The notes under the pieces were generated by a model. The model had not been told where the DNA came from. It worked only from the letters and a program-made list of their open reading frames with translations, and made no database searches. Below are positions 12,516-21,316 of a stretch of 64,000 bases of DNA, piece after piece. The DNA is from Lysobacter sp. GX 14042 (GTDB lineage: Bacteria; Pseudomonadota; Gammaproteobacteria; Xanthomonadales; Xanthomonadaceae). Made by a program: the position numbers and the translations under genes. Where the stretch lies: assembly GCF_021390425.1 (NCBI RefSeq), contig NZ_JAJUWY010000001.1, positions 496,001-560,000 on the forward strand. The letters are read 5' to 3'. Numbering within the stretch: the stretch's first letter is position 1; every line of letters starts with the position of its first letter.

Positions 12516-13907
12516 ATGACCGTCATCGCCGGCGCCATCGTCGCCGCCATCGCCAGCTTCTTCGTGTCCATTGCCGGTGCCGCCGCGCTGCTGCGCCGGG
12601 TCGTGCCGACCAACGAAGTGCATATCGTCCAGACCAGCAAGAAGACCACGTCCTACGGCAAGGACCAGGAATCGGGCAACACCTACTATTCCTGGCCGTC
12701 CTGGCTGCCGATGGTGGGCCTGAGCGTCACCGTCATGCCGGTATCGGTCTTCAGCGTGCGACTGGACGAGTACGAGGCCTACGACAAGGACCGGGTGCCG
12801 TTCCTGGTCGACGTGGTCTCGTTCTTCCGCATCAGCGACTCCAACACCGCGGCGCAGCGCGTGGCGACCTTCGAGGAGCTGTTGCAGCAGCTGGAGTCGA
12901 TCGTCCAGGGCGCGGTCCGCACCGTGCTGGCCAAGGACGACATCGACCAGATCATGGTCGAGCGCTCCAAGTTCGGGATGCTGTTCACCCAGGAGGTCGA
13001 GGAGCAGCTGAAGAACTGGGGCGTGATCCCGGTCAAGGCCATCGAGCTGATGGACATCCGCGACATGAAGGGCGGCTCGGTCATCCAGAACATCATGGCC
13101 AAGCGCACCTCCGAGATCGAGAAGGACAGCCGCACCGTGGTCGCGCTCAACAAGCAGGCCGCGCAGATCGCGGAGATCTCCGCCCAGCGCGAGATCGAGC
13201 TGCAGGAGCAGAACGCCGCCGAGGTGGTCGGCAAGCGCACCGCCGAGAAGGACCAGGCGATCGGCATCGCCAACGAGAAGGCGCACCAGGAGATCAAGGT
13301 CGAGCAGAAGAACACCGCCGAGCGCGAGCAGGAAGTCCGCCGCGTCACCGAGGTGCGCTCCGCGGAGATCGAGAAGGATGTCCAGGTGGTGCGCGCCAAC
13401 CAGTCGAAGGAGACCGCGGTCATCGGTGCCGCCGCGCAGCGCGAGTCGGCGGTGATCGCCGCCGAGGGCGTGAAGCAGGAAACCGTGCTGCACGCCGAGG
13501 GCAAGATGGAGGCGATGAAGCGCGAGGCCGAGGGCATCCAGGCCGAGGGCGAGGCGAAGGCCGCTGCCGAGACCGCCATCCTCAAGGCCCCGGTCACCGC
13601 GCAGATCATGCTCGCCGAGCGGATCGCCAGTTTGCCCGGCTATCAGAATTACCTGGTCAGCATCCGCCAGATCGAGGCCGGCGAGAAGATCGGCATCGCC
13701 CAGGCCGCGGCGCTGGAGCATGCCGACGTCAAGGTGATCGCCAACACCGGCGAGACCGCCGGCGAGGGCCTGGCGGGTGTCGGGCAGCTGTTCTCCGCCA
13801 AGGGAGGGCAGGCGATCGGGACCATGCTGGAATCGCTGGCACAGAGCCCGTCCGGGAGCGCGGTGGTCGACAAGCTGGCCGGTTTGAGCCGGGAAAACGC
13901 ATCCTGA
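12516..13907 (+). CDS. flotillin-like SPFH-domain protein
   Basis: The 463-residue protein fits the flotillin/YuaG pattern. It has an N-terminal hydrophobic hairpin (about residues 3-24), an SPFH/band 7 domain (about 30-200, with FFRISDSNTAAQRV and GVIPVKAIELMDIRDMKG), and a long Ala/Glu-rich coiled coil (about 210-360) with repeating EIEKD, AAQRE and AEG units. A short C-terminal domain follows. Flotillins scaffold membrane microdomains. The ATG has AGGGG 7-8 nt upstream. Many bacterial flotillin genes sit beside an NfeD gene, but none is next to this one. A repeat pair and then an export operon follow. Confidence 0.9.
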   Translation: MTVIAGAIVAAIASFFVSIAGAAALLRRVVPTNEVHIVQTSKKTTSYGKDQESGNTYYSWPSWLPMVGLSVTVMPVSVFSVRLDEYEAYDKDRVPFLVDVVSFFRISDSNTAAQRVATFEELLQQLESIVQGAVRTVLAKDDIDQIMVERSKFGMLFTQEVEEQLKNWGVIPVKAIELMDIRDMKGGSVIQNIMAKRTSEIEKDSRTVVALNKQAAQIAEISAQREIELQEQNAAEVVGKRTAEKDQAIGIANEKAHQEIKVEQKNTAEREQEVRRVTEVRSAEIEKDVQVVRANQSKETAVIGAAAQRESAVIAAEGVKQETVLHAEGKMEAMKREAEGIQAEGEAKAAAETAILKAPVTAQIMLAERIASLPGYQNYLVSIRQIEAGEKIGIAQAAALEHADVKVIANTGETAGEGLAGVGQLFSAKGGQAIGTMLESLAQSPSGSAVVDKLAGLSRENAS

Positions 13908-13915
13908 GCTGACGG

Positions 13916-13991
13916 CACCCGGGTGCGGCCTGCGGCCTTACCCGGGCCACGTGCCGATCCGTAGCCCGGGTATGCGAAGCGCACCGGGGAC
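13916..13991. repeat. inverted pair of a REP-like intergenic repeat
   Basis: Between the flotillin gene and the export operon, two copies of one GC-rich element face each other. Each carries GCCCGGGTA at one end and GCACC followed by a G run at the other, with a variable middle. They can fold into a large stem-loop directly after the flotillin stop codon. Elements of this look are common between genes in xanthomonads. It may end flotillin transcription or stabilise the mRNA end. Confidence 0.6.
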
Positions 13992-14020
13992 CCCGCGCCG
14001 TCCACTTCCGGTCGCCCGTC

Positions 14021-14052
14021 CGGAAACGGACAGAAAGTCCGTCCGTTTTCGG
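14021..14052 (+). promoter_or_regulatory. imperfect inverted repeat, candidate enhancer for an NtrC-type activator
   Basis: Two arms, CGGAAACGGAC (14021-14031) and GTCCGTTTTCGG (14041-14052), form an inverted repeat with one mismatch. The arm centres are about 20-21 bp apart, two helical turns. The site lies 44 to 75 bp before the -24 GG of the candidate sigma-54 promoter, a normal place for an enhancer-binding activator. The regulator encoded at the end of the same gene set is the natural candidate to bind it. A weak transcription terminator for flotillin is an alternative reading. Confidence 0.5.
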
Positions 14053-14095
14053 CCGACCTTCTTTATCAATCAATAACTTGGCCGGCCAGGGAGGT

Positions 14096-14111
14096 TGGCA
14101 CGGGTCCTGCT
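14096..14111 (+). promoter_or_regulatory. candidate sigma-54 (-24/-12) promoter
   Basis: The bases TGGCACG, four others, then CTGCT match the -24/-12 consensus (TGGCACG-N4-TTGCW) at all positions but one. The invariant GG (14097-14098) and GC (14109-14110) are exactly 12 bp apart. The predicted transcription start is about 14122, one base before the ATG of the adaptor gene. The associated regulator is of the sigma-54 activator class, which supports the call. The match is by eye only. Confidence 0.6.
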
Positions 14112-14122
14112 CCCATCAGGGC

Positions 14123-15376
14123 ATGGACATTACCAAGCCCCGCAACAACCACTCCTGGCGCCGGCCGCGCACCCTTTGGATCGTCGCCGGCGGAATCCTC
14201 ACCCTCATCCTGCTGGTCGCCCTGCTGCGCATGGACCCCGCGGCGCCCGCCGTCGCCGCCAGCGAAGTCTGGACCGGTGCCGCCACGCGCGGCGAAATGG
14301 TCCGGGAGATCCGCGCCACCGGCGTACTGTTGCCGCGCGACACCCGCTGGATTAGTGCCGGCGCACGCGCCACCGTGCAGCAGCGCGTGGTGGAACCCGG
14401 CGCGCGGGTCGAGCCGGACACGGTCATCCTCCACCTGGCCAACCCGGAACTCGAGGCCGGCCTCGAGAGGGCGCAGGCTGCCTTGGCGGGCGCCGAGGCG
14501 GAGGTGGCCGCGGCGCGCACCTCGCTGCAGTCGCAACTGCTCGACCAGCGGGCGCAGCTGGCACAGGCCGAAGCCGAATGGCGCAGCGCCGAAGTCCGTG
14601 CCCAGGCCCATGCCCGCGCGCATGCGGCCGGCGTGCTGGCCACCATCGAACTGCGGCAAAGCGAGATCAACGAGGAGCAGACCCGCAACCGCGCCGGGAT
14701 CGAACGCCAGCGCGTGGACGCCTTCCGCCAGAACATGGCGGCGCAGCTGAGCGCGGCCCGCGCCCGGCGCGACGAGGCGGCCAGTGCGCTCGAAATCGCC
14801 CGGCAGCAGCTGGACGCCATGCAGGTCAGGGCCGGCATCGACGGCATCCTGCAGCAAGTCGAGGTCGAACCCGGGCAACAGGTCGAAATGGGCGCAGCAC
14901 TGGCCCGGGTCGCGCGCCCGGACGACCTGATCGCACGGCTGCAGGTTCCCGAAGTGCTGGCCAAGGACCTGATGCTCGAACTGCCGGTGGCGATCGACAC
15001 CCGCAACGGCGTGGTCGAAGGCACTGTCTCGCGCATCGATCCGGCGGTGCGCAACGGCAGCGTGGCCGTGGATGCGGTGTTCACCGGCAAGCTGCCGCCC
15101 GGCGCCCGCCCGGACCTCTCGGTCGAGGGACGCATCCTGCTGGGCCGGCTCGAGAACGTGGTCAGCATCGCCCGCCCGCCGCTCGCCGCCCCGGACAGTG
15201 CCTCCACCCTTTTCGTGCTCGATCCCGCATCCGGCATCGCCCGCCGCACGCCGGTGCGCTACGGCGTCGCCTCAAGCGACCGGATCGAAGTCGCCGAGGG
15301 CCTGCGCGACGGCGACCGCGCCATCCTTTCCGACACCAGCCGCTGGGACAGCCACGACGTCCTTCGCCTGCGCTGA
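14123..15376 (+). CDS. periplasmic adaptor (HlyD/MacA-like) of an ABC exporter
   Basis: This membrane-fusion protein should bridge the inner-membrane transporter encoded downstream to an outer-membrane channel. The 417-residue product has an N-terminal anchor helix (about 19-36), a lipoyl/barrel half, and a long Ala/Glu/Gln-rich hairpin (about 115-235) with alternating heptads. The second half-motif (IDGILQQVEVEPGQQVEMG) and beta-barrel domains follow. No TolC-type gene is nearby, so the outer-membrane part must be encoded elsewhere. It heads an operon with the ATPase 16 nt downstream. Only a weak Shine-Dalgarno precedes the ATG, which fits a nearly leaderless mRNA from the candidate sigma-54 promoter. 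Confidence 0.88.
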   Translation: MDITKPRNNHSWRRPRTLWIVAGGILTLILLVALLRMDPAAPAVAASEVWTGAATRGEMVREIRATGVLLPRDTRWISAGARATVQQRVVEPGARVEPDTVILHLANPELEAGLERAQAALAGAEAEVAAARTSLQSQLLDQRAQLAQAEAEWRSAEVRAQAHARAHAAGVLATIELRQSEINEEQTRNRAGIERQRVDAFRQNMAAQLSAARARRDEAASALEIARQQLDAMQVRAGIDGILQQVEVEPGQQVEMGAALARVARPDDLIARLQVPEVLAKDLMLELPVAIDTRNGVVEGTVSRIDPAVRNGSVAVDAVFTGKLPPGARPDLSVEGRILLGRLENVVSIARPPLAAPDSASTLFVLDPASGIARRTPVRYGVASSDRIEVAEGLRDGDRAILSDTSRWDSHDVLRLR

Positions 15377-15392
15377 CAACATCGAGGTCACC

Positions 15393-16148
15393 ATGAACCA
15401 GACTGCTTCCACCGCCACGCCGCTGATCCGCCTGGAAGGCCTGTCCAAGGTCTTCCATACCGACGAGATGGAAACCCACGCCTTGTCCGGGATCACCCTG
15501 GACATCGCCAGCGGGGAGTTCGTGGCCATCACCGGGCCCTCGGGCTGCGGCAAGTCCACCCTGCTGTCGATCCTCGGCCTGCTGGAACCTTCCAGCGCCG
15601 GCCGCTACCTGCTGGAGGGACATGACGTCGGCAACCTGGGACTGCGCCGCGGGGCACAGGTGCGCAACGGACAGATCGGCTTCATCTTCCAGGCCTTCAA
15701 CCTGATCGCGGACCTGTCGGTGGAGGAAAACGTCGCCCTCCCCCTCACCTACCGCGACGGCGTGGACGCCAACAACCGCCGCCAGCGGGTGCGCGAGGTG
15801 CTGGAACTCGTGGGCATGAGCCATCGCGGACGCCACTACCCCGGCCAGTTGTCGGGCGGCCAGCAGCAGCGCGTCGCCGTGGCGCGTGCGCTGGTCAACG
15901 ACCCTTCGATCCTGCTGGCGGACGAGCCCACCGGCAACCTCGACAGCCGCAACGGCGAGGCGGTGATGCAGTTGCTCGAGCAGCTCAACGACAACGGCAC
16001 CACCATCTGCATGGTGACCCACGACCAGGCCTTCGCGCGCCGCGCCGGTCGCACCGTTTTGATGCTGGATGGTCGCATCGTGGACGAGGACACCTTCGAG
16101 CGGATGCGCCACGAGGACGACATGCCGCAGCTGGAGGTGGTGTCGTGA
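15393..16148 (+). CDS. ABC transporter ATP-binding protein (MacB/LolD type)
   Basis: This is the energising subunit of the exporter, 251 residues. Walker A is GPSGCGKST at about residue 48, the Q-loop is at FIFQAFNL, the signature is LSGGQQQRVAVARAL, Walker B is [12 protein letters not shown], and the switch His is in VTHD. The TGNLDS block is typical of the LolD/MacB/FtsE subfamily. The ATG at 15393 has GAGG five bases upstream, while longer in-frame starts lie within the adaptor gene. Its TGA stop overlaps the GTG start of the permease by four bases, so the two are translationally coupled. Confidence 0.93.
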   Translation: MNQTASTATPLIRLEGLSKVFHTDEMETHALSGITLDIASGEFVAITGPSGCGKSTLLSILGLLEPSSAGRYLLEGHDVGNLGLRRGAQVRNGQIGFIFQAFNLIADLSVEENVALPLTYRDGVDANNRRQRVREVLELVGMSHRGRHYPGQLSGGQQQRVAVARALVNDPSILLADEPTGNLDSRNGEAVMQLLEQLNDNGTTICMVTHDQAFARRAGRTVLMLDGRIVDEDTFERMRHEDDMPQLEVVS

Positions 16149-18568
16149 CCCGGCCCGGTGTCCTGCTGGCGGAAGTGCTGCAGTCCTGGCGCGCGCTCCT
16201 GCGCCGGCCAGCCTGGCTGGCGCTGGCCGCCACCACGCTTGCCCTGGGCGTGGCCGCGACCACGGCTGTTTTCGCCCTGCTCGACAGGGCATTGCTGCAG
16301 CCGCTGCCTTATCCGGAATCGGAGCAGCTGGTCCTGCTTGGACTCAACTTCGACGAGGAGGGCGTCGCAGCGGCGCCCGGCTTCCGCACCGCACTGGGTG
16401 GTCTGGAAGGTGTGCAGTCCATGGGCCTGGTAGCCGGACCCAGCCGCAACACCAACATCGCCATCGGCGACACCGCCGAGGTGGTGAAGACCCGGCTGGC
16501 GGATCACAGGCTGGTCCCGACACTCGGCCTGCCGATGGCAGCCGGCCGCAACTTCTCCCCCGACGAAGACCGGCCCAACGGCCCGGCGGCCGTGATCCTC
16601 GGCCATGGCTTCTGGAAGCGGCATTACGGGGGTGATCCGCAGGCAGTCGGATCGACGCTGCAGGTCGAGGGCCGGGCAGTACCGATCATCGGCGTACTGC
16701 CGCCCGGTTTCCTCGGGTCCGGCGATTTCGACCTGCTGCTGCCGATGCAGGTCAGTGCCAACAGCACCAGCATGGCCACCAACGAGTTGCTGATCGCCCG
16801 GCTTGCTCCCGGTGCGTCTGCCGAGGGCGTGTCCGCGGCGGTGGATCCGCTGTTGCGTGGTGCCTACGCCGCCCAGCCGGGCGTTTCCGCTGCCGATCTG
16901 GAATGGCTGCGCAACGTGACGATGGCCGCGGTCCCGATGTCGCAGCTGTCCAGACCCGCGAACGTGCTCTGGATGTTCCTGGCCGCGGCCGGATGCGTGC
17001 TGCTGATCGCCGCCATCAACCTGGCCAACCTGATGCTGTTCCGCTCGCTGGCCCGCAGCCACGACTCCGCCGTGCGCCTTGCACTGGGGGCGCCACGGGC
17101 GCGGCTCGCGCTGCCGGCCCTCGCCGACGGGCTTCTCGTGGGCCTGTGCGGTGCGCTGCTGGGTCTGGTCCTGGGCTGGGCGACGCTACGGCTCTTTGCC
17201 GGACTGGTTCCTGCCGAGTGGGCACTGGGCGGCGAGGTCGGCATCACCCCACGCAGCGTGTTGCTGGCGCTGGCCGCCGGCATCGCCGTGGCTTTTGCGG
17301 GCGGCGCGCTGGCGGTATGGCGCGCCATGGGCAGCAGCCCCGCACGGGAACTGGTCGGTGGCGGTCGCACGGGCTGGAGCCGTGGCACCGGTCGTCTTGG
17401 GCGTGGGCTGGTGGTGGCCCAGGTGGCGGTCGCCTCGGTCCTGCTGATCACCGCAGGCCTGTTCGGGCACAGCCTCTATCGCCTGCTTTCGGTGCCGATG
17501 GGGTTCGAGACCCGCGATATCGTCACCTTCACCCTGTCTCCGGTGGAAGACCGCCACCCGGACCTTGCTTCGTCACTGCAGCAGACCGACCGGATCTCGG
17601 CGGCCATCGCACGCCTGCCCGGAGTGGAGGCCGTTGCCGTGGCCAACGTGCCGCCGACCAGCGCGCAGTTCAACCTGCCGGTGGAGTTCGCCGATGGCCG
17701 GGGTGGAACCGTGCAATACCGCATGGTCACCCCCGGCTATGCCGGCGTCCTGGGCATGCCGCTGCTGGCCGGCCGCATGATCGGGGATTCCGACCTCAAC
17801 GGCAGCGAGCCGGTGGCGGTAGTCAGTGCTGCGTTCGCACGGGCCTACCTGGACGGGGATCCGCTAGGCAAGACCGTCCGCCTCGGGTGGGACGACGAGC
17901 AGCCCATGCGGATCGTTGGCGTGCTGGGCGACAGCCGCCAGTTCGGTCCCGGCCAGGCCGCGCCGGCCATCGTCTACGCGCCGCTTTCCCAGGTTCCGGG
18001 GGGCGTCTGGGACCTGGTCCGGCAGTACGTTCCGCTCAGCTACATGGTGCGTCTGCATCCGGGTGCCGGCCTGCATGAGCACCAGGTGCGGGACGCCGTG
18101 GCCTCGGCTTCACCGATGCAGCCCATCGCCGGGTTCCAGACGATGGAGGCGGTGGTTGCGTCGGTCACCGGGAAACAGCGCCTGGACCTGCTGCTGGTGG
18201 GTGTGTTTTCCGGCCTGGCATTGATCCTGGCCTGCGTGGGGCTGTACGCGGTGGCCGCGGTTGCAGTGGAAGCGCGGCGGCACGAGTTCGGCGTCCGGGC
18301 CGCGTTGGGCGCACCGCCAGACCGCCTGTTCCGACAGGTGCTGCAGGAAGGCCTGCGGCAGGTCGCGCTGGGCTTGGCGATAGGCCTGGCGGTGGCTCTG
18401 GCCATGTCCCGCGTCCTGCAGTCGATGCTGTATGACATCGACGTCGCGGATCCGGTTGCCATTGGCGCCGTGCTGCTGGTACTGGGCGCGGCGGGTGCGC
18501 TGGCCAGCGTCGGGCCGGCGCTGCGTGCGGCCCGCGTGCCGCCCATGCAGGCCTTGCGGGTCGACTGA
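16145..18568 (+). CDS. ABC transporter permease, MacB/FtsX type with duplicated FtsX domains
   Basis: This is the membrane subunit of the exporter, 807 residues. A first helix (about 18-42) is followed by a MacB periplasmic domain and three helices near 270-400. Then comes a second unit with a helix near 420-440, another periplasmic domain and three C-terminal helices ending in RAARVPPMQALRVD. The RAARVPPMQALR end and doubled FtsX layout fit the ADOP-like permeases, in which one chain supplies what MacB dimers provide. The GTG start overlaps the ATPase stop. The cargo is unknown; relatives export peptides, antibiotics or lipoproteins. Confidence 0.88.
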   Translation: MTRPGVLLAEVLQSWRALLRRPAWLALAATTLALGVAATTAVFALLDRALLQPLPYPESEQLVLLGLNFDEEGVAAAPGFRTALGGLEGVQSMGLVAGPSRNTNIAIGDTAEVVKTRLADHRLVPTLGLPMAAGRNFSPDEDRPNGPAAVILGHGFWKRHYGGDPQAVGSTLQVEGRAVPIIGVLPPGFLGSGDFDLLLPMQVSANSTSMATNELLIARLAPGASAEGVSAAVDPLLRGAYAAQPGVSAADLEWLRNVTMAAVPMSQLSRPANVLWMFLAAAGCVLLIAAINLANLMLFRSLARSHDSAVRLALGAPRARLALPALADGLLVGLCGALLGLVLGWATLRLFAGLVPAEWALGGEVGITPRSVLLALAAGIAVAFAGGALAVWRAMGSSPARELVGGGRTGWSRGTGRLGRGLVVAQVAVASVLLITAGLFGHSLYRLLSVPMGFETRDIVTFTLSPVEDRHPDLASSLQQTDRISAAIARLPGVEAVAVANVPPTSAQFNLPVEFADGRGGTVQYRMVTPGYAGVLGMPLLAGRMIGDSDLNGSEPVAVVSAAFARAYLDGDPLGKTVRLGWDDEQPMRIVGVLGDSRQFGPGQAAPAIVYAPLSQVPGGVWDLVRQYVPLSYMVRLHPGAGLHEHQVRDAVASASPMQPIAGFQTMEAVVASVTGKQRLDLLLVGVFSGLALILACVGLYAVAAVAVEARRHEFGVRAALGAPPDRLFRQVLQEGLRQVALGLAIGLAVALAMSRVLQSMLYDIDVADPVAIGAVLLVLGAAGALASVGPALRAARVPPMQALRVD

Positions 18569-18600: not shown

Positions 18601-20013
18601 ATGTCCATACCCACAAGCAGGAGCCCCCTGCCCCGCACCCGCGTCCTGGTCGTCGATGACCAGGGCGACGTGCGCGAAGCATTGCGCATGCTGTTGGAGA
18701 CCGAGGGTTATACGGTGGTGGCCGCCGCATCGCCGGAGGAGGCACTGGCGTGCCTGCGCGGCGACGAGTTCGCCGCCGTGCTCGCCGACATGAACTACAC
18801 CCGCGACACCACTTCAGGCCAGGAAGGCCTGGAGCTGGTGCGGCAGGTGGCGGCACAGTGGCCGGGCGTGCCGGTGATCGCGATGACCGCCTGGGCCAGC
18901 GTGGAACTGGCGGTCGAGGCCATGCGGCTGGGGGCCGCGGACTTCATCGAGAAGCCGTGGCAGAACGCCCGCCTGCTGGGCGTGCTGGAAAGCCGGATCG
19001 CGCTGGACCGCAGCCGGCGCAGCGAGCGGCGGCTGGGCGCCGCCAACGCGCTCCTGCTGGAGGAGGCCGGCGACGGGTTCGTCGCCGAATCCGCACCGAT
19101 GCGGCGCCTGGTCGAGGACCTGGGCCGGATCGCCGCAAGCGATGCCCCGGTCCTGCTGCTGGGCGAGAACGGCACCGGCAAGAGCATGCTCGCCCAGCTG
19201 GTGCACCGCTGGTCGCAACGGCGCGAGCGCCAGTTCGTCAAGCTCGACGTGGGCGGACTGGCCCCCACCCTGTTCGAGTCCGAGCTGTTCGGCCACGTGC
19301 GCGGCGCCTACACCGACGCCCGCCAGGAGCGGGCCGGACGCTTCGAACTGTCCGACGGCGGCACCCTGTTCCTGGACGAGATCGGCAACCTGCCGCTGGA
19401 GCAACAGCCCAAGCTGCTGCGGGCAATCGAGGACGGCGAGTTCGAACGCGTCGGCTCCTCTCGCACCCAGCGGGTCGACGTGCGGATCGTGGCCGCCACC
19501 AACAGCGACCTGGCCGCGGAGGTGCAGGCCGGGCGCTTCCGCCAGGACCTGCTCTACCGCATCAATACCTTCCAGGCCCGGGTGCCGCCGCTGCGCGAAC
19601 GCAGGGACGACATCCTGCCCCTGGCCCGGCACTACCTGGCGCGGGCCTGTGCACGCTATGGGCGCGATCTGCCGGTACTGGATCCTTCCGCCGAACGTGC
19701 CCTGCTGGCTTACCCATGGCCCGGCAACGTGCGCGAGTTGTCCCATGCAATGGAACGCGTCGCACTGCTGCGCGATGCGCCGCGGCTCGCCGCTGACGGC
19801 CTGGGCCTGCAGTCCACGGCCGCGGCGGCGATCCCTGGCGGCGCACTTGAGGCCATGACGCTGGAACAGGCCGAGGGCTGGCTGCTGCGAAACGCCCTGC
19901 GCGCCCATCCGGGCAACCTGCAGCGCGCCGCCACGCAACTGGGGATCACCCGCCAGAGCCTGTACCGGCGGATGGAGAAACATGGCCTCCAGACCGATGA
20001 TGCGCCAGCCTGA
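18601..20013 (+). CDS. NtrC-type sigma-54-dependent response regulator with GAYTDA in place of GAFTGA
   Basis: The 470-residue protein has a receiver domain (phospho-acceptor D63 in VLADMNYT; Lys in the EKPW block), an AAA+ domain and a Fis-type DNA-binding helix-turn-helix at the end ([19 protein letters not shown]). Walker A GENGTGKS is at 188-195 and Walker B is GTLFLDEIG. The loop that contacts sigma-54, normally GAFTGA, reads GAYTDA at 235-240, with Asp at the second conserved Gly. It lies 32 nt after the permease gene, and the kinase gene overlaps its 3' end by 32 nt. It most likely regulates the exporter operon itself. Confidence 0.92.
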
Positions 20014-21316
20014 CCGCGGCACCCGCCAGCGGCTGGTCACCGCCGCTCCCGCCTTCTGCGCGCTGCTGCTGGTACTGGCCTTCGGCACGCCGCAGGGTCC
20101 GGCCGCCTGGCTGCTGATCGTGCTGGTGGTGGCGCTGACCCTGGCCGCCGCCGTCGCACGCCGGCCGGGCGAAGGCCACCGTTTGAGGACCCTGGGCAAC
20201 CTGGTCCAGGCGCTGCTGGAAGGTGATTACACCGCGCGCGGCCTCGTGCCCGTCCGCAATGACGGATACGCACGGCTGGTCGCCGGCCTCAACGCCCTGG
20301 CCGGGCGGTTGCAGGACGAGCAGCGCGACATGCAGGAAAGCGTGCAGCTGCTCGCCAAGACCCTCGCCGCACTGGACGGGGCCGTGTTCGTGTTCGAGCA
20401 GGATGGACGGCTGCGTCTGGTCAACCCCGCGGGCGAACGGCTGCTGGGACAGCCGGCCACCCGGCTGCTCGGCATCGATCTCGAAGCGCTGGGCCTCGCC
20501 CCGCTGTTCGACGTTCCGCCCGGCGAGATCCTCACCCACACCTTTACCGGCCAGCGCGGCCGCTGGCAGATCGGCCACGCCGCGCTGCGCAGCCGCAGCC
20601 AGGCCGGCCGCCTGCTGGTGGTGCAGCCCATGGAGCGCGCACTGCGCGAGGAAGAGGCACAGGCATTCCGGCGCCTGCTGCGCGTGCTCAGCCACGAGAT
20701 CAACAATTCGCTGGCGCCGATCGGCTCCCTGGCCGACACCCTGCGCCGGATCCTGCCGGCGGACGAACGCCCGCTGGACGAGCGCCGGCGCGCCGACATG
20801 GTCCGCGGGCTGGAGGTCATCGAGCAGCGCAGCGTGGCACTGCAGCGGTTCGTGGGCGGCTATGCCCGCCTGGCACGGCTACCGGCGCCACGCCCGGCCG
20901 AGGTGGTGTTGGCGCCCCTCGCATCGCGCGTGTGTGGATTGATGGACGGGGCACCGGTGCGGCTGGAGGGTGACGGCGAATTGCGGGTGCTGGCCGATGC
21001 CGACCAGCTGGAACAGGTGCTGATCAACCTGTTGCGCAACGCGCTGGAGGCAGGCGGCGGAGAACAGGTGGTGCTGCGCTGGCGCGCGGACGGCGGCAAT
21101 GCCCGGATCGAAGTGGTCGACCGCGGGCCTGGGCCGCCTCCGGGAGACAACCTGTTCGTGCCGTTCTTCACCACCAAGCCGGGCGGCTCGGGGATCGGCC
21201 TGGTGCTTTCCCGGCAGATTGTCGAGGCGCAACGGGGAACGCTGGTCCTGGAGCCGGGGCCCGACGGGCGCGGCGCCGTTGCCACGGTGGTCCTTCCCTT
21301 GCCGGTGGGGCAATGA
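19982..21316 (+). CDS. sensor histidine kinase, NtrB-like, partner of the response regulator
   Basis: This membrane kinase of 444 residues should phosphorylate the regulator encoded just before it. Two N-terminal helices (about 20-35 and 40-58) have almost no periplasmic loop between them, so the signal is probably sensed in the membrane or cytoplasm. HAMP-like and PAS regions follow. The H-box is LSHEINN (H238), the N-box is NLLRNALEA, and the G-boxes are FFTTKPGGSGIGL. The ATG at 19982 has GGAG upstream; ATGs at 19997 and 20000 are alternatives. A strong hairpin terminator follows. Confidence 0.92.
   Translation: MASRPMMRQPDRGTRQRLVTAAPAFCALLLVLAFGTPQGPAAWLLIVLVVALTLAAAVARRPGEGHRLRTLGNLVQALLEGDYTARGLVPVRNDGYARLVAGLNALAGRLQDEQRDMQESVQLLAKTLAALDGAVFVFEQDGRLRLVNPAGERLLGQPATRLLGIDLEALGLAPLFDVPPGEILTHTFTGQRGRWQIGHAALRSRSQAGRLLVVQPMERALREEEAQAFRRLLRVLSHEINNSLAPIGSLADTLRRILPADERPLDERRRADMVRGLEVIEQRSVALQRFVGGYARLARLPAPRPAEVVLAPLASRVCGLMDGAPVRLEGDGELRVLADADQLEQVLINLLRNALEAGGGEQVVLRWRADGGNARIEVVDRGPGPPPGDNLFVPFFTTKPGGSGIGLVLSRQIVEAQRGTLVLEPGPDGRGAVATVVLPLPVGQ

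Follow-up and report, generated by a model that had tools for sequence, protein, structure and literature searches.

Genes served by sigma-54 generally carry leaders with ordinary ribosome-binding sites, and leaderless mRNAs of proteobacteria are usually viewed as scattered exceptions that share no particular type of promoter. In the stretch of 64,000 nucleotides from Lysobacter sp. GX 14042 analysed here (the window), a sigma-54 promoter motif lies so close to the first gene of an export operon that a transcript starting from it would have almost no leader, and the question is whether transcription and translation start together at this locus and whether such a coincidence is kept in relatives. 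In this report, we compare the locus with its orthologs and argue that an enhancer-dependent sigma-54 promoter, with its start locked to the start codon, is likely to give the export operon a leaderless mRNA.

A predicted sigma-54 promoter and the operon behind it

Positions 14095-14111 read TTGGCACGGGTCCTGCT, a near-consensus element of the form TTGGCACG-N4-CTGCT in which GG (14097-14098) and GC (14109-14110) are separated by the required 10 bases; the TGG-N10-GC core with elements like TTGGCACG-N4-TTGCW is present, and the position and exact GG-GC spacing given in the original prediction are correct. The GC of the -12 element, with its C at 14110, lies 13 nt ahead of the adaptor ATG (14123), and the genome has two rpoN genes. 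A strict motif (TGGCAYGNNNNYTGCW) matched eight times in the 2.8-Mb genome against three times for the reversed control, and the plausible promoters among the eight are the adaptor site, a sister exporter and an ORF that, from its translation, we take to be glnA (glutamine synthetase). These counts place the match above chance, and the stronger argument is conservation: far from being absent in close relatives, the motif is conserved in 100 orthologs. A sigma-54-dependent promoter at the head of the export operon (Table 1) is supported by these comparisons.

Table 1. Elements of the candidate promoter region and genes of the export operon, in window coordinates
Feature	Position	Strand	Remarks
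Candidate activator site 1, CGTCCGGAAACGGACA	14017..14032	+	1 mismatch to dyad TGTCCG-N4-CGGACA; centre 70 bp ahead of -24 element
Candidate activator site 2, CGTCCGTTTTCGGCCG	14040..14055	+	3 mismatches, weak alone; 23 bp downstream of site 1
IHF-consensus site, AATCAATAACTTG (WATCAANNNNTTR)	14068..14080	+	0 mismatches; between dyads and -24 element
Sigma-54 -24 element, TTGGCACG	14095..14102	+	TGG in 100/100 orthologs
Sigma-54 -12 element, CTGCT	14107..14111	+	T-G-C in 100/100 orthologs
Predicted initiator, C(-1)/A(+1)	14122..14123	+	Start predicted at A14123 of ATG (or 14121-14122) from the base before ATG in 100 orthologs
HlyD/RND-type periplasmic adaptor gene	14123..15376	+	417 aa, starts MDI
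MacB/LolD-type ABC ATPase gene	15393..16148	+	
ADOP-family duplicated FtsX/MacB permease gene	16145..18568	+	TIGR03434 above cut-off
NtrC-family response regulator gene	18601..20013	+	Receiver, AAA+, Fis-type HTH; co-occurrence with promoter
Histidine kinase gene	19982..21316	+	Overlaps regulator gene

The operon runs on one strand in the order adaptor, ABC ATPase, ADOP/FtsX permease, NtrC-type response regulator and histidine kinase. The permease scores 638.8 bits against TIGR03434 (cut-off 622.3), as an exporter of the ADOP family should, and exporters of this COG class (COG0577/COG1136) are annotated as antimicrobial-peptide transporters. Identity with the darobactin exporter (DarCDE) was ruled out by scores far below the NCBIfam equivalog cut-offs (DarC, 47.9 against 450 bits; DarD, 247.5 against 375 bits). 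In the relatives L034, L035, L038, L039, L041 and L042, several kb lie between the adaptor and ATPase genes and the nearest permease match, and the regulator stands 10-25 kb away from the adaptor, a layout pointing to much larger gene clusters.

Spacing and predicted start base across the order

Adaptor orthologs were taken from 297 family genomes and 300 order genomes, and the top-scoring -24/-12 match was looked for in an interval reaching from 250 nt (order set) or 200 nt (family set) upstream to 20 nt inside the gene, with GG and GC demanded and the T of the -12 element left free. The start choice favoured ATGGAY, which was our own decision and agrees with the conserved MDI N-terminus. The promoter-bearing set comprises 100 orthologs and spans eight family-level groups and about 50 genera, all of one order. 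From the -12 C to the A of the ATG the distance is 13 nt in 77 of the 100, 12 nt in 11, 14 nt in 11 and 15 nt in one, counts that overstate independence because the orthologs share ancestry and that refer to predicted start codons. In the -24 element, TGG is followed by C in 99/100 and by A in 98/100. The 11-nt spacer, on the other hand, is near random, with 33% mean pairwise identity and 73 distinct sequences among 77. On an adaptor tree with 87 members, the 14-nt state accounts for at least five changes and the 12-nt state for at least two, and no distance beyond 12-14 nt occurs among close orthologs, the 15-nt case being a distant paralog. Thus, single-base indels recur and larger shifts are not kept, which indicates that the length of the spacer is maintained and not its sequence.

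Within the order but outside this set, only two loci reached a motif score of at least 11 (of 13): L049, a gene whose weak match lies at -126, and L085, a distant paralog. A distant adaptor paralog, L053 (G061:C12; 33% identity), also carries a sigma-54 motif, with 15 nt separating it from the ATG and with a C at -1. At L081 (GATGGA) and L186 (TTGGA), the -24 element and the spacing are kept and the GC of the -12 element is replaced by GG; these promoters are perhaps decaying or altered.

Of the 100 orthologs, 94 have C immediately before the ATG, five T and one A, which makes 99 with a pyrimidine; this column holds 1.63 bits against 0.02-0.56 bits in the other spacer columns, and in orthologs lacking the promoter the -1 base is mixed. 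Counting from C14110 as -12 puts +1 at 14122, one base ahead of the ATG, and to that extent we reproduced the count behind the original prediction of a leaderless start. Initiators usually consist of a pyrimidine and then an A; given the conserved pyrimidine-A step at -1/+1, A14123 is a likelier +1 than C14122. The ortholog comparison supports the predicted placement and shifts the favoured base by one position, and with either base the predicted leader is 0-1 nt. The most probable single start of the transcript is A14123 itself. A preference for purines is not absolute, as the sigma-54 start of glnA in Xylella, a member of the same family, which has a 35-nt leader, was mapped to a cytosine (PMC3224663); the adaptor mRNA may have a 1-nt leader.

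As for the Shine-Dalgarno, which had been noted as weak, the 16 nt that precede the ATG hold no complementarity (with a duplex energy of about +1.6 to +2.2 kcal/mol), so that a Shine-Dalgarno is absent upstream of the AUG. Complementarity is also weaker in the promoter-bearing orthologs than in the others (median 0.05 against -3.05 kcal/mol, p = 2e-7), as expected for leaderless mRNAs. Among the relatives that lost the promoter, a GGAG-type Shine-Dalgarno takes its place in L076 and L077 and a weaker one in L075, but none was found in L078 and L079. A structured RNA or riboswitch leader was rejected, as Rfam gave no match in 13600-14500.

If transcription began 3-6 nt ahead of the ATG, perhaps within GGG at 14119-14121, the result would be a very short leader and leaderless-like translation. 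Such a start could draw on the preference for G at -2 to -4 (57-63%) and on the variability of sigma-54 starts, with C. jejuni sites lying 8-13 nt from the start (PMC3847290); however, the strongest conserved column is the C at -1, a base in keeping with a pyrimidine-A start on the ATG itself, and starts at -3 to -6 would leave only 7-10 nt to the -12 C. We consider this variant unlikely and retain A14123 as the predicted start.

The same genome provides a comparison in a second exporter adaptor (G000:C22:103183-104509; L101, L102), which has its own sigma-54 promoter (TTGGCACGCATCCTGCT), an IHF-like site (AATCAACAAGTTG), TGTCCG/CGGACA-type sites and a leader of about 22 nt. Orthologs of this sister exporter are common in the family, and the distance from their -12 C to the first likely start is 33-49 nt in most species and 23 nt in one, with ambiguous starts in a few. 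The sister promoter (G000:C22, L101-L121) shares with the window operon the sigma-54 promoter, the TGTCCG/CGGACA-type sites, an AATCAA-type IHF sequence and a related adaptor, but differs in its ordinary, variable leader and in a start-codon distance that is not fixed. One sister ortholog, L110 (G259), has an in-frame ATGGAC 13 nt from the -12 C with a C before it, a possible independent leaderless start. In the window genome the distance is 35 nt for the sister exporter and 40 nt for the glutamine-synthetase-like gene, and in distant homologs outside the order the sigma-54 promoter lies 36-52 nt from the start. Because all of these have leaders, the fused arrangement is, by this comparison, a property of the adaptor operon within one order. 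A lineage-wide habit of leaderless sigma-54 genes was rejected, since the other matches in a pattern scan of 149 family genomes were scattered, and among its readable loci the adaptor was the only clearly recurrent gene family. The conservation of so unusual a placement suggests that it has a bearing on production of the pump.

Upstream sites and the NtrC-type regulator

The original prediction also placed an enhancer-like 11-bp palindrome upstream of the promoter. The repeat is present and the orthologs support a putative enhancer role for it, but as a single operator it had to be replaced by two tandem 16-bp dyads whose starts are 23 bp apart; a repeat search did not report the 11-bp inverted repeat at its seed length. 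Among the 99 orthologs having enough upstream sequence for dyad and IHF counts, 70 contain the dyad with at most two mismatches, against 0.8% of shuffles, and the enrichment is seen only with a spacer of 4. At least two sites at up to three mismatches occur in 51/99 (0.5% of shuffles), mostly 20-22 bp apart. The centres of the sites cluster near 60, 70, 81, 91 and 102 bp from the promoter, corresponding to a 10.5-bp helical phase (R = 0.68, with a p-value inflated by sequence relatedness). Between dyads and promoter lies a perfect IHF consensus that had been missed; a match with at most one mismatch is found in 37 of the 99 orthologs against 2.3% of shuffles, and its start is mostly 27-28 nt before the -24 17-mer, as in the window. 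Some orthologs have no recognisable dyad or IHF match. Farther upstream, at 13939-13988, an inverted repeat TACCCGGGCCACG/CGTAGCCCGGGTA is followed by GTAGCCCGGGTATGCGAAGCGCACCGGG; this sequence has eight dispersed genome copies with up to three mismatches and lies between the Band-7 gene and the operon.

The regulator has the receiver, the AAA+ domain with Walker A/B motifs and loop, and the Fis-type HTH of the NtrC family, with GAYTDA in place of GAFTGA in its sigma-54 contact loop. The readable ortholog group of the regulator has GAYTDA or GAFTDA throughout and never GAFTGA, and a GAYTDA-type variant is listed as compatible with activation in Desulfovibrio (PMC4641369). Genomes with the fused promoter encode a regulator that is 52-83% identical, mostly on the same contig and usually within about 25 kb, whereas nine genomes with a promoter-less adaptor have only regulator paralogs at 42-47%. 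On account of this co-occurrence the regulator is the likely activator, and the NtrC-type protein of the operon is the probable cognate enhancer-binding protein. The conservation and phasing of the dyads, together with a PF00158 regulator lost along with the promoter, point to activator sites served by a cognate AAA+ enhancer-binding protein.

The sigma-54 promoter could be real and the main translated transcript still come from elsewhere, with a long leader, if a sigma-70 promoter farther upstream or read-through out of the Band-7 gene supplied it; the sigma-54 polymerase would then act as an extra or a roadblock. The Band-7 gene is co-directional and 215 bp upstream, and a consensus scan found no intrinsic terminator between it and the operon; but the scan gave no sigma-70-like promoter in 13850-14200, the ATG lacks the Shine-Dalgarno that a long-leader mRNA would need, and an upstream transcript explains neither the locked distance nor the -1 pyrimidine. 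An upstream source of the translated mRNA is, in our judgement, quite unlikely. That the -24/-12 match is due to chance or is decaying and functionless, a reading for which the eight strict genome matches, most of them within reading frames, might be cited, is exceedingly improbable given the fixed geometry in 100 orthologs, the adjoining sigma-54 activator gene and the enhancer and IHF sites in register, and chance itself is rejected on the conservation.

A proposed mechanism and its relation to known systems

Our data suggest a model for the leaderless sigma-54 operon in which the co-encoded kinase, responding to a presumed signal, would phosphorylate the NtrC-type regulator. The regulator would then bind the two TGTCCG-N4-CGGACA sites, which lie about 47-70 bp upstream of the -24 element. 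IHF may bend the DNA between the activator sites and the promoter and so aid looping, and the AAA+ ring of the regulator would open the sigma-54 polymerase. RNA would start at A14123, or at most 1-2 nt earlier, in the pyrimidine-A context, and ribosomes would initiate at the 5'-terminal AUG of an mRNA that has neither leader nor Shine-Dalgarno. Since regulator and kinase are encoded in the operon, it should be autoregulated.

We also put forward, tentatively, an order-wide role for the fusion of a strictly activator-dependent sigma-54 promoter to a leaderless start: an exporter of a toxic compound, its presumed substrate, might stay silent until that compound is sensed and then be translated even with ordinary initiation blocked. 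If this is true, promoter geometry rather than the 5' leader sets both transcription and translation start, and antibiotics inhibiting canonical initiation, for example, would leave translation of the exporter possible. Leaderless mRNAs are recognised at their 5'-terminal AUG and tolerate kasugamycin (PMC5230787, PMC4929434), and this escape is the basis for the speculative benefit of making the exporter during blocked canonical initiation.

DarCDE and MacAB likewise consist of an adaptor, an ATPase and an FtsX-type permease, but the permease of the window operon is of the ADOP type. Sigma-54 control of operons for ABC-type antimicrobial-peptide or FtsX-like permeases was predicted by motif scanning in 2025, with an enrichment of COG0577 reported for Gammaproteobacteria, Opitutia and Bacteroidia (PMC12316311). 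Those operons share the exporter class (COG0577/COG1136) and the sigma factor with ours, and the link between sigma-54 and FtsX-type exporters is accordingly not new; 'leaderless' and 'start codon' are absent from that paper, where promoter-to-ATG geometry is apparently untreated. Leaderless mRNAs of Sinorhizobium meliloti, with 171 such starts (PMC3616915), and of Bradyrhizobium japonicum, whose leaderless starts are preceded by an extended -10 (sigma-70-like) box (PMC4842269), have 5' ends mapped at the AUG, whereas the end is predicted here; the two reports apparently do not describe a conserved sigma-54 leaderless operon like that of the window. We found no description of such an operon in the open-access literature. 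The predicted coupling of a sigma-54 promoter to a leaderless start, kept to about 1 nt over about 50 genera, amounts to a natural experiment on what selects for leaderless translation, with built-in controls in the sister exporter with its normal leader, the lineages that lost the promoter and the leader-bearing relatives outside the order. The closest canonical counterpart is the NtrC/IHF-type glnA promoter of Xylella fastidiosa (PMC3224663), which shares the -24/-12 element, two putative activator sites and a perfect AATCAA-N4-TTG IHF consensus; there, however, the sigma-54-dependent start was mapped 35 nt before the ATG, with a predicted Shine-Dalgarno, whereas in the window operon it is predicted to lie at the ATG.
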